Source: Candidatus Parcubacteria bacterium (GTDB taxonomy: Bacteria; Patescibacteriota; Minisyncoccia; Minisyncoccales; JAGLUP01). Taken from it: a DNA stretch of 64,000 bases. Within the stretch, counting starts at the first letter, position 1. Each line of letters opens with the position of its first letter. A program made the translations under genes and the position numbers. This document shows, piece after piece, positions 32,543-61,462 of the stretch. The notes under the pieces are model-generated. The model ran no database searches. It worked only from the letters and a program-made list of their open reading frames with translations, and was not told where the DNA came from. The stretch is taken from positions 62,001-126,000 of the forward strand of contig JAGLUP010000006.1 in NCBI GenBank assembly GCA_023134715.1. The letters run 5' to 3'.

Positions 32543-32617
32543 AATTTCAAAATCCAAATTATTCCAAATTATTCCAAATAAAACTCAAAATCCAAAATCC
32601 AAAATAATTTTTGACAT

Positions 32618-33289
32618 TTAGTCATTTGGATTTGATTTGACATTTGGGCTTTGGGTTTTGGGTTTAATAAAAGTTTCTTTTATTGCATCTATCGCCTCTT
32701 TCGGTATCATTAAATATTTATAATTCAGTAAATCCAAACAGTTTAAATCTTTTGCCTGAATTGTTGCTGTTTTGGGAATATTTCTCGCGCCCAAAATTGC
32801 GTTTTTATCTATTTTTGCTAAAGCAATTAAACAAGTTTTTGCCTTACAGGGAAAATTATTTAAAATATTAAACATAACTTTGGTTTTGGCTTTTTCCGGC
32901 TTCAACTCATTCAAAACAATCAACTCTTTATCTCTTGCTTTCTGGCTTAAAACTATAAACAACGCCTTTGTTTTCATTTTTTTAGGAATTCTCTTCTTGA
33001 AATTTCTCTCATTGGTCGGACCAAATGTAATTCCGCCTCCTCGCCAAATTGGAGAACGAGTTGAACCTGCTCTTGCTCTTCCGGTTCCTTTCTGCCGCCA
33101 TGGCTTTCTGCCGCCGCCTCGCACCGCTCCCCTGTCTTTGGTATGCGCGATAACTTTCCTGCGATTTGACATTTGAGAAACAGCTACTTGGTGAACTAAA
33201 TCTGGGTTCATTTTCACATCAAAAATATCTGCCGGTAATTCAGTTTTTCCTGCTTCTTCCCCTTTTTGATTATAAACTGCAACTTTCAT
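32618..33289 (-). CDS. rplD: 50S ribosomal protein L4 (uL4)
   Basis: 223 residues: MKVAVYNQKGEEAGKTELP, DRGAVRGGGRKPWRQKGTGRARAGSTRSPIWRGGG and the end domain with YKYLMIPKEAIDAI. The last residues (KTQSPNVKSNPND) are read from short repeats of the type ccaaatccaaa. It is normally preceded by rplC, but here 1.8 kb of foreign plus-strand cassettes intervenes. Confidence 0.96.
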   Translation of the reverse strand: MKVAVYNQKGEEAGKTELPADIFDVKMNPDLVHQVAVSQMSNRRKVIAHTKDRGAVRGGGRKPWRQKGTGRARAGSTRSPIWRGGGITFGPTNERNFKKRIPKKMKTKALFIVLSQKARDKELIVLNELKPEKAKTKVMFNILNNFPCKAKTCLIALAKIDKNAILGARNIPKTATIQAKDLNCLDLLNYKYLMIPKEAIDAIKETFIKPKTQSPNVKSNPND

Positions 33290-33311
33290 ATAATTATAAA
33301 TTATAAAAATT

Positions 33312-33417
33312 GACTCTTTTCAGAGCCAAAATTACCTTAACGGATTTCACTCTGCGCAATCAATTTAATATAACCATTGATATATTTTTATATTACCCTT
33401 TTCCAAAAAAAAGTCAA
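33312..33417 (-). promoter_or_regulatory. Promoter and leader hairpin of rplD
   Basis: TTGACT (33417-33412), 16-bp spacer, TAATAT (33395-33390) on the minus strand give rplD its own promoter after the cassette island. The leader of about 85 nt contains a hairpin GGCTCT-GAAA-AGAGTC (33327-33312, GNRA loop), followed by AATTTTT, which could be an attenuator. In E. coli L4 regulates the S10 operon through its leader; a similar role here is only an inference. Confidence 0.6.
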
Positions 33418-33445
33418 CCCCGTAGTGAGATGTTTAATCCCATGA

Positions 33446-33468
33446 TGTTTAATCCCGTGGATTAAACA
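33446..33468. repeat. Short perfect hairpin TGTTTAATCC-cgt-GGATTAAACA
   Basis: A second, single TGTTTAATCC lies at 33431-33440. The hairpin sits between the divergent rplD promoter and the first cassette promoter. Confidence 0.6.
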
Positions 33469-33478
33469 CTAACAAACA

Positions 33479-33538
33479 TTGACTTTTAGACCATAATTTG
33501 GTATAATATAATTGTTTCAAATAAATAAATGAAACAAT
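33479..33538 (+). promoter_or_regulatory. Cassette A promoter and 5' hairpin
   Basis: TTGACT (33479-33484), 17-bp spacer, TATAAT (33502-33507). The transcript would begin next to the stem ATTGTTTC / GAAACAAT (33511-33538). The block is repeated at 33999 and 34551. Confidence 0.85.
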
Positions 33539-33573
33539 ATTAAAAAACAAATATACAAAAAGGGTGATAAAAA

Positions 33574-33738
33574 ATGAAGATAAAAGTAATGTATGTAATT
33601 GGTGGAGTACTTTTGGGCTTCGGACTTACTAGGTTTGGCATATATATAGCTAGAGTCACTAATTCTTCAAAGATGATTGGAGCTGTATTCGGACTATTAA
33701 CCGCAATAGGAATTATAATTATCTTGGAGTTGCTCTAA
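33574..33738 (+). CDS. Cassette A small membrane protein (54 aa)
   Basis: MKIKVMYVIGGVLLGFGL at the N-terminus and MIGAVFGLLTAIGIIII near the end give two membrane helices joined by a short polar loop (ARVTNSSK). Ribosome site AGGGTGA lies 6 nt before ATG. Flanked by its own promoter and terminator that are repeated in cassettes B and C, while the reading frame differs. The opening GVLLGFG matches HVLLGFG in cassette C, so A and C may be distant relatives. Unknown family. Confidence 0.75.
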   Translation: MKIKVMYVIGGVLLGFGLTRFGIYIARVTNSSKMIGAVFGLLTAIGIIIILELL

Positions 33739-33740
33739 AA

Positions 33741-33811
33741 TCTTTTCGGGCGGACTATAAAAAAATAAAAGGTATTCAACTTAAGAAAAAGTTGCTCTGC
33801 CGATTTTTTTT
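33741..33811 (+). terminator. Cassette A double-hairpin terminator
   Basis: First a TTCGGGC-loop hairpin closing on GGACT, then CAACTT / AAGTTG within GGTATT...CTCTGCC, then eight T. The same block follows cassettes B and C. Confidence 0.85.
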
Positions 33812-33927
33812 ATGTTATAATCTCTATTGTGGTGGGGATGGCGCAGTGCTATACTTATATCAGTTAATAATCCTGGTTCTTGCATTACGTTAAGACCAGC
33901 AAAAGCTCTGCGAAAGCAGGGTTTTTT
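33792..33927 (+). ncRNA. Candidate small structured RNA between cassettes A and B
   Basis: A promoter TTGCTC (33792-33797), 18-bp spacer, TATAAT (33816-33821) overlaps the cassette A terminator. The likely transcript (from about 33828) starts GTGGTGGGGATGGCGCAG and folds a hairpin CTGGTTCTT / AAGACCAG. It ends with the terminator CTCTGC-gaaa-GCAGGG plus six T (33906-33927). No reading frame or known RNA family consensus was recognised. The equivalent sites after B and C lack the TATAAT. Confidence 0.5.
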
Positions 33928-33950
33928 GTTCGCCTAAAATTTGTAAAAAA

Positions 33951-33989
33951 TTGTAAGGAGCTTTGTAAGGAGCTAAACTCCTTACAATT
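33951..33989. repeat. TGTAAGGAGCT repeat before cassette B
   Basis: Direct copies of TTGTAAGGAGCTTTG and an inverted ...AGCTAAACTCCTTACA form a hairpin directly upstream of the cassette B promoter. Confidence 0.6.
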
Positions 33990-33998
33990 CTACAAACA

Positions 33999-34050
33999 TT
34001 GACTTTTAGGCCATAATTTGATATAATATAATTGTTTCAAGTCAAAAGAA
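33999..34050 (+). promoter_or_regulatory. Cassette B promoter and 5' hairpin
   Basis: TTGACT (33999-34004), 17-bp spacer, TATAAT (34022-34027), then TTGTTTC / GAAACAA. Nearly identical to cassette A upstream of the transcript body. Confidence 0.85.
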
Positions 34051-34087
34051 ACAAATTTAAAAAAATAAATATACCGAGGTGATGAAA

Positions 34088-34393
34088 ATGACATGGAAAC
34101 TAATTCGAAGAAAGGGCACACCTGTCTATATGGTATTGGATGAAAGGGAAGAAGAAGAATTAAAAAAAGAATGCGATCTAACCGACGCAGATATTGACAT
34201 TTTAGGAGAATTCAGAACAAAAGAAGATGGTCTAGATGTAAAGGATAAAATTTTTACAGTGACTACTATAAATTCTTATACGGGCAAAAAAGAAGAAACA
34301 TGGAGTCGCGAAGCTGGTGAAAACTTTGCTGATAGGTTAGATTTTGACGAAAATTTAGCAAAGACTATGCAAGAAATGCATTCTTTGTCTTAA
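34088..34393 (+). CDS. Cassette B small soluble acidic protein
   Basis: About 101 residues (MTWKLIRRKGTPVYMVLDE...). It is acidic, with no membrane segment or signal peptide: EREEEELKKECDLTDADIDI and a C-terminal LDFDENLAKTMQEMHSLS. Upstream GTG (34079) and ATG (34082) codons are in frame, but GAGGTG at 34076-34081 is 6 nt before the ATG at 34088, matching the spacing of cassettes A and C. No similarity to their ORFs despite near-identical flanks. Unknown family. Confidence 0.75.
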   Translation: MTWKLIRRKGTPVYMVLDEREEEELKKECDLTDADIDILGEFRTKEDGLDVKDKIFTVTTINSYTGKKEETWSREAGENFADRLDFDENLAKTMQEMHSLS

Positions 34394-34464
34394 AGTCTTT
34401 CGGGCGGACTATAAAAAAACAAACGGTATTCAACTTAAAAAAAGTTGCTCTGCCGATTTTTTTT
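34394..34464 (+). terminator. Cassette B double-hairpin terminator
   Basis: AGTC-tttcgggcg-GACT hairpin, then CGGTATTCAACTT / AAGTTGCTCTGCCG and eight T (34457-34464). Confidence 0.85.
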
Positions 34465-34489
34465 ATCTAATTTTCCCTGCCTGTAACTT

Positions 34490-34534
34490 AAGGAGCTTAG
34501 CTACAGGAGCTTAGCTACAGGAGCTTAGCTCCTT
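34490..34534. repeat. Tandem AGGAGCTTAGCTAC repeat before cassette C
   Basis: Three direct copies of AGGAGCTTAGCT separated by ACAGG; each copy is itself nearly palindromic. Same motif as 17806-17846. Confidence 0.65.
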
Positions 34535-34550
34535 GAAATTCTACAAAACA

Positions 34551-34615
34551 TTGACTTTCACGCCATAATTTGGTATAATGTAATTGTTTCAAATAAATAA
34601 ATGAAACAATATTAA
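34551..34615 (+). promoter_or_regulatory. Cassette C promoter and 5' hairpin
   Basis: TTGACT (34551-34556), 17-bp spacer, TATAAT (34574-34579), then ATTGTTTC / GAAACAAT, identical to cassette A. Confidence 0.85.
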
Positions 34616-34645
34616 AAAACAAATATACAAAAAGGGTGATAAAAA

Positions 34646-34798
34646 ATGAAGATTTTAAAAGGAATAGGACATGTTTTGCTTGGTTTTGGAATAGTAACAT
34701 TGACTACCGTGATAATAATACCAGGCACCCACATAGTGGAATCTTTCATAGGTGGGATGTTAATAGGCGTTGGTGGAATGTTTTGTGGAACTGAGTAA
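34646..34798 (+). CDS. Cassette C small membrane protein (50 aa)
   Basis: MKILKGIGHVLLGFGIVTL and VESFIGGMLIGVGGMFCG give two membrane segments around TTVIIIPGTH. AGGGTGA ribosome site 6 nt before ATG, as in cassette A. The small size, two helices and strong promoter would fit a holin, type I toxin or membrane-stress peptide, but nothing in the sequence decides among these. Confidence 0.75.
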   Translation: MKILKGIGHVLLGFGIVTLTTVIIIPGTHIVESFIGGMLIGVGGMFCGTE

Positions 34799-34813
34799 AC
34801 TCTCTCAAAAATC

Positions 34814-34886
34814 AGTCCTTTCGGGCGGACTATAAAAAAACAAACGGTATTCAACTTAAAAAAAGTTGCTCTGCCGATTTTTTTTA
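34814..34886 (+). terminator. Cassette C double-hairpin terminator
   Basis: AGTCC-tttcgggc-GGACT is a perfect hairpin here, followed by the CAACTT / AAGTTG terminator with eight T. Confidence 0.85.
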
Positions 34887-34937
34887 TCTAATTTTTCAAC
34901 TTTTTATTTTTTCCACTCAATTTTAACTTTTCAAAAC

Positions 34938-34973
34938 ATAACACATATACCACGATCGTTGTATATGTGTTAT
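34938..34973. repeat. 36-bp palindrome, copy 2 (CGATCG centre)
   Basis: ATAACACATATACCA-CGATCG-TTGTATATGTGTTAT, identical to the copy at 55425-55460. Confidence 0.82.
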
Positions 34974-35022
34974 ACTTTCCAACAAGCTATTTGAGAATAA
35001 AAGCCCATACAACATATAATAA

Positions 35023-35058
35023 AATAACAAATCAGGCCGATCGGCCTGATTTGTTATT
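35023..35058. terminator. Bidirectional terminator between the cassette island and rplC
   Basis: Perfect 18-bp inverted repeat AATAACAAATCAGGCCGA / TCGGCCTGATTTGTTATT. It would stop both plus-strand transcripts and the minus-strand tuf-rpsJ-rplC transcript. Confidence 0.85.
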
Positions 35059-35120
35059 TATTCGCCACTTATTAATTATCAATTATCATTTATTAATTAT
35101 TAATAATCAATAATTATTTA

Positions 35121-35717
35121 TCATTTGCTGATCGTTATTTCTAAAAATGTTCCGCGGCGGCCGGGAATTGCGCCACGAACAGCAAGTAAATTATTTTCTT
35201 TGTCAATTTTTACTATTTTTAAATTCTTTACTGTGATTCTTTCTACCCCCATCCGTCCAGGCATCTTCTTTCCTTTAATTACTCTTTGGGGGAAAGCGCT
35301 TCCAACTGAACCAAGCGTTCTTTGTTCGTGCTTTACTCCATGAGTAGCGTTTCTTCCGGAAAATCCCCATCTTTTTACAGCGCCCTGGAATCCTTTTCCT
35401 TTAGAAATTCCAGAAATTTTAACCTTGCTACCCTCTTCAAAAACTGAAACATCAATCTTGTCCCCTATTTTATGCTCACCACTGCTTTCAAATTCTCTTA
35501 AATATTGAAATTCTTTTCCTTTTTCTGTTTTTTTTATTCTTTTCTGTTTTTCTTTTTTAATAAACCCAACTTGAACTGCTTCATATCCATCTTTGTCTTT
35601 TGTTTTAAGCTGAACAACCTCGCAAGGACCTGCCTCAATTAAAGTAACAGGGACTACTCGTCCCTGTTCGTTAAAAATCTGCGTCATTTCTATTTTCTTA
35701 CCCAATATAAACTTCAT
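35121..35717 (-). CDS. rplC: 50S ribosomal protein L3 (uL3)
   Basis: 198 residues: MTQIFNEQGRVVPVTLIEAGPC, GKGFQGAVKRWGFSGRNATHG and MPGRMGVERITVKNLKI. It is the last gene of the tuf-rpsJ-rplC unit; the normal next gene rplD is 1.8 kb away. Confidence 0.97.
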   Translation of the reverse strand: MKFILGKKIEMTQIFNEQGRVVPVTLIEAGPCEVVQLKTKDKDGYEAVQVGFIKKEKQKRIKKTEKGKEFQYLREFESSGEHKIGDKIDVSVFEEGSKVKISGISKGKGFQGAVKRWGFSGRNATHGVKHEQRTLGSVGSAFPQRVIKGKKMPGRMGVERITVKNLKIVKIDKENNLLAVRGAIPGRRGTFLEITISK

Positions 35718-35719
35718 AT

Positions 35720-36061
35720 TTACATCTTTATCTCAATATCAACTCCTGCCGGCAAATTTAAATTCGTTAAAGCGTCAATCACTCTTGGATTAGGAGTTAA
35801 AATATCAATCAATCGTTTATGGGTTCTCATTTCAAATTGCTCTCTTGAATCTTTATGAACAAAAGTAGACCTATTAACTGTGTATTTGTTAATTTCTGTA
35901 GGCAAAGGAATCGGACCCAAAACTTCTACTCCAAAACGAAGCGCTGTCTCAACAATCTGTCGGGCGCTGTTGTCTATAACCCTATGGTCATAACCCCGAA
36001 GTTTTATTCGAAGCTTGGGTTTTACTTCTTCTTTGACTTCCTTTTCTTTAACTTTCGGCAT
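35720..36061 (-). CDS. rpsJ: 30S ribosomal protein S10 (uS10)
   Basis: 113 residues, with a charged N-terminal extension before [63 protein letters not shown] is typical. Confidence 0.97.
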
Positions 36062-55468: not shown

Positions 55469-56107
55469 TTAGCTTTTTAATTCTTTTTGATATTCGAAAT
55501 AAGAATAAGCGATTAAATAAACGCTGATAAAAATTACCGGAACTATAATAAAAATAAAAGCATAGTCCTCTAAAATAATTCCCAATAAAGCAATTATTCC
55601 CGCTATTTTGAATAACCTGCCGCCTAATTTATGTGTCTTATTCCAAACTATTTCACTGCTTAAAGTCCACGGAGTTTTAATTCCAATAAACCAATTTCTT
55701 TTAGCGTTTTCCATTAAAACGCCGCAATAATAAAACAAAGCGCCCAAAGCAGGCATCATCAGCTGAACCATATTAAATCTAAAACCAAGATTCCAAAAAA
55801 TAGTTAAAATATAGACATACAAAAGAAAACCAATAATTAAAACAATAAATCCATCATAATATTTTCTAAACTTTTCAATATTTTGCTTTAAAGGATCTAT
55901 CTTAGGAACTAAAAGGAAAAGCAAGAATAAACCAATAGAAAACATTGGCATTAAAAATAAAGCCCAAAATCTTGGCATATAATCATCTACCTCCCCCCTA
56001 CTGTTCCAATGCGACGCCATTTTTTCCGGCATCTGAGGATACAAATAAACACCAATCAAAAATGATATTAAAATTAGTCCTAATGTAATTACTACGCTTT
56101 TCTTCAT
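55469..56107 (-). CDS. SdpI/DUF1648 family membrane protein
   Basis: 212 residues, six membrane segments. YPQMPEKMASHWNSRGEVDDYMPR is the DUF1648 motif, and NWFIGIKTPWTLSSEIVWNKTHKLGGRLF is the SdpI repeat motif. In B. subtilis SdpI gives immunity to the SdpC toxin. Its ATG overlaps the stop of the cohesin-like gene (56104-56107). No SdpC-like toxin is seen. Confidence 0.85.
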   Translation of the reverse strand: MKKSVVITLGLILISFLIGVYLYPQMPEKMASHWNSRGEVDDYMPRFWALFLMPMFSIGLFLLFLLVPKIDPLKQNIEKFRKYYDGFIVLIIGFLLYVYILTIFWNLGFRFNMVQLMMPALGALFYYCGVLMENAKRNWFIGIKTPWTLSSEIVWNKTHKLGGRLFKIAGIIALLGIILEDYAFIFIIVPVIFISVYLIAYSYFEYQKELKS

Positions 56108-57558
56108 ATTTCTTCAATGTCTTTTAGTTCTTTTTTTATAACTCGTTCAATGTCAGCTAAATTTTTCAAAAGCTCTTTCTCCGCTTGTTTTTCTTCTTCA
56201 GTTAATGCTCGCTGTTGCTTGGCTTTCCTGAAGAGCTTGAGCTGAAGCTCTATATCTTTGCAAAGTTCATTATATTCTTTATAAAATTTATTTTTCAAAT
56301 CTTTGCTTTCTCTTTTAATGGCTCGCTGAGTATTTATAATCCTAAAGAAAAGATAAATAAGAATAATCAGCAAAATAAGCAAAAGAATAAGAAGGAGTAA
56401 GTTGAACAAGGAATAATCTATGAACCAGGGACCAAGAACAAAACCAGAAAGAATAACCTTGACAATATATTCTTTGGAAGGATAACTTATTGCTCCCAGA
56501 GCGTCTTTTGCTTTTGCTGAAATTATATATTTGCCTGATTTAAACAAGCCATCTTCATTGATTAACCAATCTCCTTTTTCATTGCTTTTTGTTTCCCATT
56601 TTTTTATCAACTCTTGAGCTTTCTCAAAGAAAACAATTACTGTGTAACCAGGCGCAGCTGTTCCCTCTATGTGAAACACTTCTTCTCCTGATATAAAGGT
56701 CTCAGGACAGACAGCAACTTCAGGCGCAGGAATTGACTCTACGTTAATCTCTGAAAAAGCAGTAAAGGCATTTCCGGCATTATCTATTGCCTTAACTTCT
56801 AATGTATAAACTCCGGGCTCTTGAAGAGGTATTTTGTAAGGATTTGCTTGCGGCTCCATTAATGTTAAAATATCTTGCTCCCCGATTTTAATTTCGTAAT
56901 GGTTTATTCCTGAATCGTCATCTTTTGCTTCAAAATATAAAAGAGGATGAGGATTAGCAGGATAACCTTCATTATCCACGATTATCTCAAAAGGCTCAGG
57001 CGGTTCGGTATCAATTTTAATTTTTTCAGAAATGTTTATAAAATAACTGCCTCCTTTGCTTAATTTAAAAATATTAGTTCCTCTCCCGTCGTCGGCTAAA
57101 ATTATCTCTTTTCCAAAATATAATTTTGCCTGGCCTGAAAATTTTCCCTGAAAAATTACATTCAACACTTTTCCAGAACTGCCAGTATATCCAGGAGAAG
57201 GCAGTCCTCCTCCAAAAATAATTGTGCCTGCTCCATTAGAATAAACCGGCTCTTTAACCCACATACCAAAAATAGAATTGGTCTTTGAGACCTTTATTAC
57301 TTTTAATTGAGCAGAAGGATAATAAAGCACAGCTTGAGCCGCGTTAACAGCCGCTCCATCTGTATTAAGCATTATATTTACAGAAAAACTCTGCCCAATA
57401 TTATAACTCCCCTGAGATGGAGAAAGACAAAGAGAAGCCCCCTCAGCCCTTACGGGCTGCGCTAAACCAACGCCAAACAACAAGAACACTAAACCGACAC
57501 AAAACCAAAAATTTCGCGTCTGTTTCGTGTATAAGTTTCGTGTTGGTTTAGTGTTCAT
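56104..57558 (-). CDS. Cohesin-like membrane-anchored surface protein 1
   Basis: 484 residues. The polar N-terminus MNTKPTRNLYTKQTRNFW is followed by a signal helix (VGLVFLLFGVGLAQ). Then a cohesin-type beta domain (about 42-175: SQGSYNIGQSFSVNIMLNTDG, VLYYPSAQLKVIKVS), two Ig-like segments (DDDSGINHYEIKI), a membrane helix near residue 380 and a cytoplasmic coiled coil. It is the downstream member of a tandem series with 57548, 58857 and 60287. Its N-terminal codons are built from an 11-bp repeat. Confidence 0.8.
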   Translation of the reverse strand: MNTKPTRNLYTKQTRNFWFCVGLVFLLFGVGLAQPVRAEGASLCLSPSQGSYNIGQSFSVNIMLNTDGAAVNAAQAVLYYPSAQLKVIKVSKTNSIFGMWVKEPVYSNGAGTIIFGGGLPSPGYTGSSGKVLNVIFQGKFSGQAKLYFGKEIILADDGRGTNIFKLSKGGSYFINISEKIKIDTEPPEPFEIIVDNEGYPANPHPLLYFEAKDDDSGINHYEIKIGEQDILTLMEPQANPYKIPLQEPGVYTLEVKAIDNAGNAFTAFSEINVESIPAPEVAVCPETFISGEEVFHIEGTAAPGYTVIVFFEKAQELIKKWETKSNEKGDWLINEDGLFKSGKYIISAKAKDALGAISYPSKEYIVKVILSGFVLGPWFIDYSLFNLLLLILLLILLIILIYLFFRIINTQRAIKRESKDLKNKFYKEYNELCKDIELQLKLFRKAKQQRALTEEEKQAEKELLKNLADIERVIKKELKDIEEI

Positions 57559-58867
57559 AGGTTTCGTGTTCGGTCTCGTGTTTAAATTTTTCTTCCATCT
57601 TCTTGAATTGTTCTTTCCTTCTTCTCATTATTTTCTGATGCCTTGTCCATAAATAATATCCAATTAAAATAATTATAATTATTAAAATTAAAATTAAAAT
57701 CCACCAAGGGAAAGAAACTCCTTTAAACTGAATTCCCTTTTTGTTTAAAGATATTCCGTCTGGAAAAATTTGAAGTTTTACTGTCCCCTCTTTCCAATTT
57801 CCAGCTTTATCATAAGCCCTTACTACAATTAAATATTTTCCTATTTCTAAAGAAGGCAATCTATAAGGAGTGGTTATTTCCACAAAAAAACCAGTTGGTT
57901 TTTCTTTCTTCTCTTTTGTGATGTCAATATATTTAATCTCATAGTGGTCTAATCCAGAAAGCGCGTCAGTGGTTATAAACGAAACTAAGGGTTGTTTTTC
58001 GCTTGTTTTTAAAGACGGTTCCACTGTCGGAGTAAAACCAGCCGGAGAGCCAGCGTCAATTTGAACTAAATAGTGGCTTGTTCCTCCCCAAACATTTTCT
58101 TTTTCCACTTTTACATGAAAATACCAAATTCCGTCTTCCACCTCGCCATAAGAGACCGAAGCGTAATCTCCTTCTGCTCTGTTATCAGGCGTCCCGGTTG
58201 GATCTTGGTCAAAACTGTAACTAAAATTAGCTGCTCCCTCCTCTCTTTCCCAGCCAAAAGTAGGATTATTGTTTTTATACCACCTATTCTTATCAGAATG
58301 AGTTAAAGAAAAGACATTAGGCCCTTCAGGCGGAGGAACTACAAGATTATAAACTCCCCTTCCCATTGAGGTTAAAATATCTGTTCCATCAGGGTCATTT
58401 CTAAGAACCTTGGAAGAATCCAAAAAAACAATTGATGTTTCTCCGGGAGAAAGAACTCTAAAAGTAACAGTAGAAACTAAACCCGAAGAGGTATTAATCC
58501 CTGGAGAAGGAATGCCGCCCATAAAACTCAAAGTTCCTTCAGTGTTGGAATAAGCAGGTTGAGATATCCAGACAGAAATAAAGGACTTGCCTGCTGTTGG
58601 GCTTGCTACTTGAAGTTTTGTTGGATCAAATTTTAAATTTACTTCAACAGCGTTAATATCCTCTCCATTAGTATTAACAAAAATAGAAACATCAAAAGTA
58701 CTGCCGATAAAAAAACTCCCTGAAGAAGGAGAAAGATATAAAGAAGCCCCCTCAGCCCTTACGGGCTGCGCTAAACCGACACTAAACAACAAGAACACTA
58801 AACCGACGCCAAACCAAAAGTTTCGCGTCTGTTTCGTGTATAAATTTTGTGTCTGTTTAGTGTCCAT
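57548..58867 (-). CDS. Cohesin-like membrane-anchored surface protein 2
   Basis: 439 residues. Signal region with VGLVFLLFSVGLAQPVRAEGAS, then a cohesin-type domain (about 43-175: SGSFFIGSTFDVSIFVNTNGE, LKFDPTKLQVASP). Then an Ig-like part (ITTDALSGLDHYEIKYID), a membrane helix near 395 and a short basic tail (KHETEHETYEH). The tail and the next gene's start share an 11-bp repeat. It overlaps both neighbours by about 11 bp. Confidence 0.82.
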   Translation of the reverse strand: MDTKQTQNLYTKQTRNFWFGVGLVFLLFSVGLAQPVRAEGASLYLSPSSGSFFIGSTFDVSIFVNTNGEDINAVEVNLKFDPTKLQVASPTAGKSFISVWISQPAYSNTEGTLSFMGGIPSPGINTSSGLVSTVTFRVLSPGETSIVFLDSSKVLRNDPDGTDILTSMGRGVYNLVVPPPEGPNVFSLTHSDKNRWYKNNNPTFGWEREEGAANFSYSFDQDPTGTPDNRAEGDYASVSYGEVEDGIWYFHVKVEKENVWGGTSHYLVQIDAGSPAGFTPTVEPSLKTSEKQPLVSFITTDALSGLDHYEIKYIDITKEKKEKPTGFFVEITTPYRLPSLEIGKYLIVVRAYDKAGNWKEGTVKLQIFPDGISLNKKGIQFKGVSFPWWILILILIIIIILIGYYLWTRHQKIMRRRKEQFKKMEEKFKHETEHETYEH

Positions 58868-60281
58868 AGGTTTCGTGTTCTGTTTCGTGTTTAAGTTTTT
58901 CTTCTAATTCTTGTTTTTCTTTTTTAAATTCCTGCTTTAATTGTTCGGATTGCATTTCTCTCTGTTCAATTTTTTTAATCTCATCTAACGCTTCCCTTAT
59001 TTCTTTTATTCCTTTCTTAAATCCAAACCTGCCTCTGGTTGAAAAATAAAAAATCAAAGACCCTGTTCCTAAAATTAAAACGGTTATGATAAAATAAATT
59101 ATCCACCATGGGAAAAGAACGCCTTTTACCTGAATTCCTCTTCCCTCTATATAAGAAACAAAAGGAGCAATCAGCTGAAATCGAACTTCTCCTTCCTGCC
59201 AGTTCCCTGCTCTGTCATAAGCTCTAATAATAACACTGTATTTCCCTTGTTTTTTATCCGACATTCTAAGAGGAGAAACAGCTTCTGTAAAAAAGGGCTG
59301 CTGAATCGGTATTTGATTAAGGTCTCTTACGCTTACCTCATAATAATCTATCCCTGAATGCGAATCTTGGGTCTCAAAATAAATAAAACGAGAATAAGTT
59401 TCTGCTTGTGGAACAAATTTTTGAGGAGGAGTTTTATCAATTTTTACTGAAAAATGACTGGTCTTTCCCCAAATTCCCTGCTTTTTAGCTCTCAGATGAA
59501 AATACCAAATTCCATCAGCAACATCGGTATAAGATTTAAAACTAATTTCTCCTTCGGAAACAGTATCTGGAACTTCTTTTGGATTTTGAGAAAAACTAAA
59601 ACTAAAATTAGAAAGCCACTCGGCTTTTTCCCAAAAAAAACTGGGATTAGAATCACTATACCAAAGGTCAGAGTCAGGATGAGTTAACGACATTATTTTT
59701 GGTCCCTCGGGATGAGGAATTAAAATTTCGTAAACACCGTTGATATTTGTGGTAAAAATCGGCGTGCCTTTTCCGTCAGACAAAAGCAACTTTGAAGAAT
59801 CTAAAATTTCAATCTTAGCTTTTCCAGACGACTTTGCCCTAAAAGTAATCGTAGAGACCAAACCTGAAGAAGTCATAATTCCTTCAGGCATTCCCCCTTT
59901 AAAAGAAATAGTTCCTCCGCTATTGGAATAACTCGGAGGAACTATCCACTCTGAAATAAAAGATTTTGTTGCTGTGGGAGATGTTACCTGTAAAATCTCC
60001 GGAGGAAATTTTAAATCAAGCTCTACTGCGTTGATTTTCTGATTCTTGGTATCAACATAAACAGAAACAGAAAACGTGCTCCCTACAAAAAAAGTTCCCT
60101 GCGATGGAGCGAGATAAAGCGAAGCCCCTGCCGCCTTTACGGACTGCGCTAAACCGACGCTAAACAAAAACACTAAACCGACACTAAACCAAAAGTTTCG
60201 CGTCTGTTTCGTGTATAAGTTTTGTGTCTGTTTCGTGTCCATAGGTTTCGTGTATAAGTTTCGTGTCTGTTTCGTGTTCAT
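58857..60281 (-). CDS. Cohesin-like membrane-anchored surface protein 3
   Basis: 474 residues. An N-terminal repeat region (MNTKQTRNLYTKPMDTKQTQ) precedes a signal helix. The cohesin-type domain (QGTFFVGSTFSVSVYVDTKNQ, LKFPPEILQVTSP) is followed by SHPDS...SFSQNP and QDSHSGIDYYEVSVRD segments and a membrane helix near 400. A Lys/Glu coiled tail ends HETEHETYGH. Same architecture as 57548-58867; the pair are clear paralogues. Confidence 0.82.
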   Translation of the reverse strand: MNTKQTRNLYTKPMDTKQTQNLYTKQTRNFWFSVGLVFLFSVGLAQSVKAAGASLYLAPSQGTFFVGSTFSVSVYVDTKNQKINAVELDLKFPPEILQVTSPTATKSFISEWIVPPSYSNSGGTISFKGGMPEGIMTSSGLVSTITFRAKSSGKAKIEILDSSKLLLSDGKGTPIFTTNINGVYEILIPHPEGPKIMSLTHPDSDLWYSDSNPSFFWEKAEWLSNFSFSFSQNPKEVPDTVSEGEISFKSYTDVADGIWYFHLRAKKQGIWGKTSHFSVKIDKTPPQKFVPQAETYSRFIYFETQDSHSGIDYYEVSVRDLNQIPIQQPFFTEAVSPLRMSDKKQGKYSVIIRAYDRAGNWQEGEVRFQLIAPFVSYIEGRGIQVKGVLFPWWIIYFIITVLILGTGSLIFYFSTRGRFGFKKGIKEIREALDEIKKIEQREMQSEQLKQEFKKEKQELEEKLKHETEHETYGH

Positions 60282-60286
60282 AAGTT

Positions 60287-61462
60287 TTATGCCAGTTTAA
60301 CGTTCTGCTGTCGGTTTCGTGATTTAATCACCTGCCAAATTATTGCAAGTCCGATTAAAATCAACAAAAGGATAGCCATATCTTTCCATGTCGCTTTATA
60401 TGGTGGTGTAATTTCCGCTATTCTTTTATTTCCCGCTTTATCAATCGTTTTAACTAATATCTTGCTTCTCAAGCTCTGGTCTTCCAGTAAATAAGGACTC
60501 TCCCCTACTTTCCAACCTTTTTTGGCGATTTTTAGCGTCCATATTCGCGGTATTTCGCGTATCTCATAATGCTCAATTCCCGAGGTCTTGTCATCGGCCG
60601 CGAAAACCAAATAATTCTTTCCTTCAATTTCAGTAATTTTTGGCTCAAATTCCTCTGGAGCCGCAGTATCAATCATTGCCCGAAAACTCACTTTCGGTCC
60701 CCACTCTCTTTCGCGACTTTCACGTAAAAGAAAGTAATAAATTCCATCGCCTTGTTCTTTAAAATCATACTCCATCGCTCCCATCCAAAATGCCACTCCC
60801 TCTTTGGGCTCTGGCTCATCTGAAATTTCATCTGGTTCAGCTTGAGGATCTCGGCTTAAAATCCAACTATATTCTGCTCCTTCAACTAAATCCCAATAAA
60901 GAGAAAGTATATTATTGTTATACCATTTATTTTGGTCTGGATGCGATTCAGAGGAAATCCCGGGCAAGCCCTCTGGCTGTTTTAAAATTTCATATTCTCC
61001 TTGTAAAAAATTTGATTGGGCTAACGAACCCTCTCCGTCATTTAATAAAATCTTAGAATTATTTTCAAAAGCAATTTTTGCTTTGCCAAGAGCTTCTGCT
61101 GAAAAAATAATCTTAGCCAATAAGCCGTCTCCCTTGAATCCATTCGGCGTCCCGCCGGCAAAAGAAATTTTTCCATTTTTAAATTCCGGCTTTTTTACAA
61201 AAAATTTTAAAATTGAATCTCCTTTGCTGAAATCAATCGCTTCTAATAAATTTGAAGGAAATGTTAAATACGCCTCAACCGCGTTTATTTCTTCTCCCTC
61301 AGTGTCTATTCTAAGCTCGGTTAAAAAACTATCTCCTTGATAAATTGTCTGCGATTGCGGCGCCAAATATAAACTCGCCGCCTGGCCTCCAAAAGGCCAC
61401 ACTAAACAGACACTAAACAAAACACTAAACAGAATCGAAACCTTTTTATTTTTTTGAACCAT
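60287..61462 (-). CDS. Cohesin-like membrane-anchored surface protein 4
   Basis: 391 residues. Signal peptide MVQKNKKVSILFSVLFSVCLV, whose hydrophobic core is encoded by the same 11-bp repeat family read in another frame. Then a cohesin-type domain (QTIYQGDSFLTELRIDTEGEE, LTFPSNLLEAIDF), the shared SHPDQNKWYNNN and DDKTSGIEHYEIRE segments and a C-terminal membrane helix near 370 with a short basic end. Confidence 0.82.
   Translation of the reverse strand: MVQKNKKVSILFSVLFSVCLVWPFGGQAASLYLAPQSQTIYQGDSFLTELRIDTEGEEINAVEAYLTFPSNLLEAIDFSKGDSILKFFVKKPEFKNGKISFAGGTPNGFKGDGLLAKIIFSAEALGKAKIAFENNSKILLNDGEGSLAQSNFLQGEYEILKQPEGLPGISSESHPDQNKWYNNNILSLYWDLVEGAEYSWILSRDPQAEPDEISDEPEPKEGVAFWMGAMEYDFKEQGDGIYYFLLRESREREWGPKVSFRAMIDTAAPEEFEPKITEIEGKNYLVFAADDKTSGIEHYEIREIPRIWTLKIAKKGWKVGESPYLLEDQSLRSKILVKTIDKAGNKRIAEITPPYKATWKDMAILLLILIGLAIIWQVIKSRNRQQNVKLA

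Follow-up and report, generated by a model that had tools for sequence, protein, structure and literature searches.

How three small transcription units with shared ends and unrelated coding parts came to lie antisense inside a ribosomal-protein operon is the question raised by one locus of a Candidatus Parcubacteria bacterium (assembly GCA_023134715.1, contig JAGLUP010000006.1), of which a stretch of 64,000 nt, hereafter the window, was analysed. The gene order around the locus is tuf, rpsJ, rplC, the three units, rplD, rplW, rplB, rpsS and on, and the units, complete and on the + strand, occupy 33479-34887 between rplC/L3 and rplD/L4 (Table 1). A preliminary description had placed here three cassettes with the same promoter, 5' hairpin and terminator and with different small ORFs; promoters, flanks, terminators and ORFs were all recovered in the letters, and its coordinates are correct, the end being better set at 34887.

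Table 1. Features of the L3-L4 region, in positions of the window
Feature	Position	Strand	Basis or remark
rplD/L4	32618-33289	-
Terminator-like hairpin TTGGCTCTGAAAAGAGTCAA + T5, right before the rplD/L4 start codon	33329-33310	-
Probable own promoter of rplD and downstream genes, TTGACT-16-TAATAT	33390..33417	-	9/12
Palindrome TGTTTAATCCCGTGGATTAAACA, 10 nt before -35 of unit 1	33446..33468	+	stem of 10
Unit 1 promoter TTGACT-17-TATAAT, TG before -10	33479..33507	+	promoter scan
Unit 1 5'-terminal leader hairpin ATTGTTTCA/TGAAACAAT	33511..33538	+	-6.9 kcal/mol, z -2.8
Unit 1 ribosome-binding site AAGGGTGA	33560..33567	+	sequence
Unit 1 ORF c1, 54 aa, two predicted membrane helices	33574..33738	+
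Good - strand promoter, inside unit c1 only	33739-33712	-
Unit 1 terminator TTTTCGGGCGGACT...GCCGATTTTTTTT	33743..33813	+	alignment, folding
Second terminator-like hairpin CTCTGCGAAAGCAGGGTTTTTT, 3' of unit 1	33906..33927	+	read from sequence, no separate folding
Palindrome TTGTAAGGAGCTAAACTCCTTACAA, 5' of unit 2	33963..33987	+	stem of 10
Unit 2 promoter	33999..34027	+	promoter scan
Unit 2 leader hairpin, shorter	34032..34054	+	-4.8 kcal/mol, z -0.4, alone not above chance
Unit 2 ribosome-binding site GAGGTGAT	34076..34083	+	sequence
Unit 2 ORF c2, 101 aa, acidic, soluble, orphan	34088..34393	+
Unit 2 terminator	34397..34466	+	alignment
Palindrome AGGAGCTTAGCTCCT, 5' of unit 3	34519..34533	+	read from sequence
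Unit 3 promoter	34551..34579	+	promoter scan
Unit 3 leader hairpin	34583..34610	+	-6.9 kcal/mol, z -2.1
Unit 3 ORF c3, 50 aa, two predicted membrane helices	34646..34798	+
Unit 3 3'UTR start ACTCTCTCAAAAATCAG	34799..34815	+	boxA-like; aligned by eye with GTTCTTTCAAAAATC, L3-L4 junction of genome G037
Unit 3 terminator, identical to unit 2 terminator	34818..34887	+	alignment
Perfect 19-bp inverted repeat with T-rich tail, strong terminator of tuf-rpsJ-rplC	35022..35059	-
rplC/L3	35121-35717	-

Every unit consists of a promoter, a leader that opens with a hairpin, a ribosome-binding site, one ORF and a terminator. The common TTGACT-17-TATAAT promoter holds for all three units, whose promoters are the top three matches (11/12, with TG before -10) in 32600-35750. 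The 5' hairpin described for all of them stands for c1 and c3 and is weaker in c2. The label "double hairpin" is a fair one for the terminators, in which an inner CAACTT/AAGTTG hairpin is nested within an outer CGG../..CCG stem and followed by T8, and the ORFs are of the types reported, two being two-helix membrane peptides and one an acidic protein. The palindromes before the three -35 boxes differ in sequence from unit to unit, that of unit 3 being read directly. Neither an Rfam family nor a tRNA was found within the window. The S10 operon itself is split at the site of the units, with a terminator after L3 and a likely separate promoter for L4. Taken with this promoter, the hairpin that precedes the L4 start codon is a possible attenuator, which is of interest since L4 of E. 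coli regulates the S10 operon through attenuation.

The contrast between flanks and coding DNA is sharp. From promoter to start codon, 91 of 95 columns are identical between c1 and c3, 79 of 97 between c1 and c2, and 77 of 97 between c2 and c3, an overall identity of 79-96%, while the terminators are 96-100% identical (69/69 for c2/c3 and 67/70 for each of the other two pairs). Flanks that had been called near-identical are so for the terminators and the c1/c3 leaders, whereas the c2 leader is clearly more diverged, also in its ribosome-binding site (GAGGTGAT versus AAGGGTGAT). Between these flanks, the c1 and c3 coding DNAs align over only their first ~20 nt (157 of 1000 shuffles score as high) and their proteins show a marginal likeness (31 of 5000 shuffles reach their score), and c2 has no similarity to either, in protein or DNA. 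The third unit joins a c1-like leader to the c2-identical terminator and is preceded by a palindrome (AGGAGCTTAGCTCCTT..ATTCTACAAA) similar to that of c2, so that the units look like mutual recombinants. The terminator occurs in exactly three copies in the whole assembly, those of the window (E 2e-35 to 5e-26), and the unit as such exists there in these three copies only.

Cassette duplication with replacement of the ORF, as the preliminary description had proposed, is well supported within the window by these near-identical flanks around unrelated coding DNA, and an ORF swapped between conserved flanks would be the simplest reading. The same pattern could in principle arise if a single gene for a small membrane protein was duplicated in tandem and its copies then diverged fast under diversifying selection, in the manner of toxins or surface peptides, c2 being a degenerate or frameshifted copy. 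Both c1 and c3 begin with MKI.., they are the only alike pair (E 0.007) among 30 cassette ORFs compared, every other pair having E >= 0.02, and several ORFs of other families at the L3-L4 junction are likewise two-helix peptides of ~50 aa. Divergence alone is, however, not expected to leave 5' flanks at 96% and terminators at 96-100% identity around coding DNA that cannot be aligned past 20 nt, nor does c2 resemble the other two, and we regard this explanation of the whole set as unlikely, although c1 and c3 may in part be the result of plain divergence. No recombinase, attachment site or direct repeat that would mark an exchange mechanism was found.

What relatives carry at the same place was surveyed by measuring the L3-L4 gap in 133 Patescibacteria genomes of the same order. 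The gap is mostly 0-110 nt and reaches at least 200 nt in 25 cases, and a unit of promoter, ribosome-binding site, small ORF and terminator is present in 16 of the 133 genomes, from ten other families and always antisense (ORFs of 76 aa in G218, 62 in G159, 64 in G160, 75 in G082, 73 in G017, 87 in G213, 49 in G037, 93 in G033, 47 in G058, 58 by eye in G043, 36 in G223, 28 in G222, 63 in G039, ~50 and apparently frameshifted in G038, 57 in G068 and 55 in G050). The two-helix ORF of G038 (L051) needs a one-base shift in ATGAAAAAAACTTGC to be open, which could be an assembly error in an A-run, a pseudogene or a programmed slip. Upstream palindromes with a stem of at least 8 were counted in 7 of 16 cases, against 0.1 in shuffles. 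One further genome, G112, has a sense HicB-HicA toxin-antitoxin pair at the junction (L160; HicB E 5e-12, HicA E 2e-17), so that 16 of the 17 other genomes with an insertion have it antisense, a ratio of 16 to 1 that is far from even, relatedness being ignored. A likely reason for this bias is that an antisense intrinsic terminator would leave transcription of the operon running.

Occupied and empty junctions occur side by side in single genera. A 12-nt spacer in G012 stands against a filled junction in G058 of the same genus, and G005 is empty where G050, again of the same genus, has a unit that fills exactly the space from the L3 stop codon to the L4 start codon. Four members of genus g78 have four different ORFs (28, 36, 62 and 76 aa), and its other members have gaps of 11-42 nt. 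The junctions of G060 and G083 retain a terminator alone, which looks like loss of the ORF. To judge from these comparisons, units have been gained and lost at L3-L4 recently, and the junction is an accessory-gene hotspot in this order of Patescibacteria. Outside the order, 27 genomes were examined and none had an antisense unit at the junction; in another class, two members of one family (G313 and G298; L267, L269) have there a sense gene of ~220 aa that, by inspection, resembles a glycerophosphodiester phosphodiesterase. Right behind the L3 stop codon, several families also carry a nested palindromic element of ~150-200 nt (GCGAGGGAAGTAATTTTTGGGAC...GTACCAAGAATTAGCTTCCCGAGCG) with variable inner hairpins (L037, L038, L061 and L129, in G004, G058, G021 and G060), a candidate for a structured RNA or for something MITE-like.

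The window's flanks might have been expected to frame varied ORFs in other genomes too, but at full length they were found in none (terminator searched in 147 relatives, 5' flank in 196) and are private to this genome, whereas the 5' arm of the terminator (TTYGGGCRGACT) and the overall architecture recur. Exchange between genomes would accordingly have to be read from the architecture and the terminator arm. The check suggested in the preliminary description, a search for varied ORFs in the window's flanks elsewhere, thus fails in its strict form, but taken broadly its outcome largely favours the cassette reading. Matches to the 5' flank in 87 of the 196 relatives were judged to be chance, being short, AT-rich and 74-100% identical over 18-59 nt, and terminator matches at L005, L007, L011 and others were rejected as lying inside unrelated genes, while the one at L004 stands behind a real small-ORF unit that adjoins the EF-G gene. 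All three terminators of the window open with TTTCGGGCGGACT, the 5' arm of a terminator type, TTYGGGCRGACTCNAAATGCCCG, which is found at two G017 loci with different ORFs and also in G083 and G037; across families f1, f18 and f38, no fewer than seven different ORFs go with this one type. Neither terminator arm nor spacer had a match in IMG/VR.

Units of the same build also occur far from ribosomal genes, and they can form arrays. Contig C20 of G083 has seven of them in a row, each with its own promoter, a strong ribosome-binding site and an unrelated soluble ORF of 78-168 aa, parted by 43-nt spacers TTTTTTTATTTCCGC..CCCGAGAGTTTTTCTCGGGG of the form TTTTTTTATTTCCGC(CGC)CCCGAGAGTTTTTCTCGGGGTTT, and a similar set in G017 likewise combines fixed hairpin spacers with differing ORFs. 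These arrays, the shared terminator type and a junction that is filled differently or empty in relatives extend the support for ORF replacement beyond the window. Of 243 genomes in the order, 121 match a pattern of strong promoter with AGGTGA within 8-38 nt of the -10 box, and matches are far fewer for a reversed control; about one third of thirty such loci head longer, more ordinary genes, so the build alone is no proof of a cassette. Varied ORFs within fixed flanks, in arrays of up to seven, recall integron gene cassettes. Every unit here has its own promoter and terminator, though, no attC-like site was seen (inspection for the core GTTRRRY/RYYYAAC was by eye only), and the integrase model TIGR02249 was above cut-off in none of 12 genomes, among them the window's own assembly (~90% complete); the integron reading was rejected as extremely improbable. 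Immediately upstream of its rRNA promoter, G039 has another small-ORF unit (L115; ribosome-binding site AAAAGGAGGTAGAG, ORF, terminator), which makes rRNA operons a possible additional docking site. Elsewhere in the window, at 56104-61462 on the - strand, four related secreted proteins (start MNTKQTRNLYTK..) are encoded in tandem; they have cohesin-like SLYLSPSQG.. domains and a C-terminal membrane helix and may be a surface-protein expansion.

The region behind the stop codons holds a further recurrent signal. Of 30 units, eight have GYTCTTT no more than 30 nt 3' of the stop codon, where shuffled sequences would give 0.11, and in one of the eight the motif overlaps the terminator arm. The motif resembles boxA, whose consensus GYTCTTTAANA is gamma-proteobacterial (PMC5725501), and the rRNA leaders of the order carry AAAGTTCTTTGAAAATT; units c1-c3 have degenerate forms only. 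By eye, at least 13 strong-promoter leaders across the order have GYTCTTT between the -10 box and the ribosome-binding site, and in some leaders it touches the Shine-Dalgarno sequence (AGTTCTTTGGAGGTGA in G050 and G064). GYTCTTT was also seen upstream of 16S rRNA at L115, L117 and L113. A putative link of the motif to NusB and S10 is a lead, and boxA-based autoregulation of NusE/S10 has been proposed in other bacteria (PMC5725501). The units could on this basis be regulators of the S10 operon, their antisense transcripts feeding back on or insulating ribosomal-protein transcription through boxA-like sites for NusB/S10, with the ORFs secondary, and the antisense orientation of 16 of the 17 other insertions would suit such a role. 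This is very unlikely, since the junction lacks a unit in most genomes of the order, units of the same build occur far from ribosomal genes, the window's three units preserve the motif in part only, and selection for a readable operon also explains the antisense bias.

The ORFs of the window's units belong to no known family. Nothing significant was found for c1-c3 in Pfam, PHROGs, PADLOC or NCBIfam, holin-like scores for c1 (E 0.2-0.25, sub-threshold) being taken as an effect of composition. For c2, two matches among 196 relatives (E 0.003, 31% identity, one spanning three stops) were rejected, and no relative was found in IMG/VR or GTDB contigs; a single-sequence AlphaFold model reached pLDDT 73 and pTM 0.53, the remaining four models being poor, and had no PDB fold match at E < 0.1. 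Homologues of the tiny ORFs were not found, and their coding status is read from ribosome-binding site and context. No family library lends support to the stress, defence or toxin-immunity set that the preliminary description had offered as a possibility, the one hint being the HicBA pair. Small hydrophobic peptides encoded in tandem near-identical units, the HicBA pair at the junction of G112 and the control of a ParE-like toxin gene by boxA (PMC5725501) would be in keeping with a toxin-antitoxin, toxin-immunity or defence set, in which the membrane peptides are toxins and the acidic 101-aa protein is the immunity protein or antitoxin. The lack of any match for c1-c3 in the databases named argues against such a set, as do the separate promoter and terminator of each gene, unlike a toxin-antitoxin operon, and a type I layout is not common to the units, only the first of which has a good promoter on the opposite strand; we consider it improbable. 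The products are better seen as accessory small proteins, which we infer to be constitutively expressed from moron-like units.

A moron is usually defined by its own promoter and its own terminator. In temperate phages, moron loci are single autonomous genes, often with their own promoter and antisense, that vary at fixed junctions (PMC7067206). The window's units are likewise autonomous and antisense, have their own promoter and intrinsic terminator (hairpin + T8), and belong to a class whose content varies, and which is present or absent, at a fixed junction among relatives (genera g13, g6 and g78). Unlike morons, they are chromosomal and lie inside a ribosomal-protein operon, with tuf, S10, L3, L4 and L23 rather than phage genes as neighbours; the arrays elsewhere are also non-phage, and several units here share one set of promoter, leader and terminator with different ORFs. 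They share with integron cassettes the arrayed, varied small ORFs between recurrent flanks, and with accessory or defence hotspots a core-gene junction that is filled variously, once by HicBA, or empty; they differ from the latter in being mostly a single unit with one ORF of 28-100 aa, nearly always antisense, and no known defence gene is present in the window. BoxA-regulated genes (NusB/NusE; suhB and the ParE-like toxin gene, PMC5725501) offer a parallel in GYTCTTT near small genes, sometimes at the ribosome-binding site in relatives, although in most units here the motif, a putative NusB site, follows the stop codon and precedes the terminator. No description of such cassettes was found in the open-licence PMC literature, and what is new is that moron-like cassettes stand on the chromosome, within a ribosomal operon, and also occur as arrays.

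The explanation that we favour, and hold to be probable, is that the units are moron-like, autonomous cassettes for small genes in a hotspot of accessory genes, and that one of them was duplicated here and had its ORF replaced. Each unit would be a self-contained, insulated cassette of upstream palindrome, strong sigma-70 promoter, short structured leader, ribosome-binding site, small ORF and intrinsic terminator. Its antisense position between L3 and L4 would be explained by the hotspot for accessory units that this junction forms in the order; an antisense unit terminates its own transcript and should leave the ribosomal operon unstopped. Copying one unit twice in tandem would have given the three units of this genome, and the ORF would have been replaced between a leader and a terminator that the copies share, for which recombination within the conserved flanks is the simplest route. 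Like phage moron genes, the units would supply accessory proteins, here two small membrane peptides and one acidic soluble protein, constitutively and in large amounts. More tentatively, and as less likely than not, the units may belong to an undescribed cassette system of Patescibacteria, built of palindrome, promoter, leader, ORF, boxA-like site and terminator. The ORFs of such a system would be swapped between conserved flanks with no integron integrase, and its units would dock by preference antisense in ribosomal-protein operons and form arrays elsewhere.

For most tiny genes in the very small genomes of Patescibacteria, neither a function nor a relative is known. A recognisable cassette build at a findable place, be it the L3-L4 junction or the hairpin-spaced arrays, allows accessory small proteins to be listed systematically and provides candidates for roles in defence, host interaction or toxicity. 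One of the most conserved bacterial operons serves as a landing site, and the cassette architecture lets one ask how streamlined episymbionts acquire and exchange genes.
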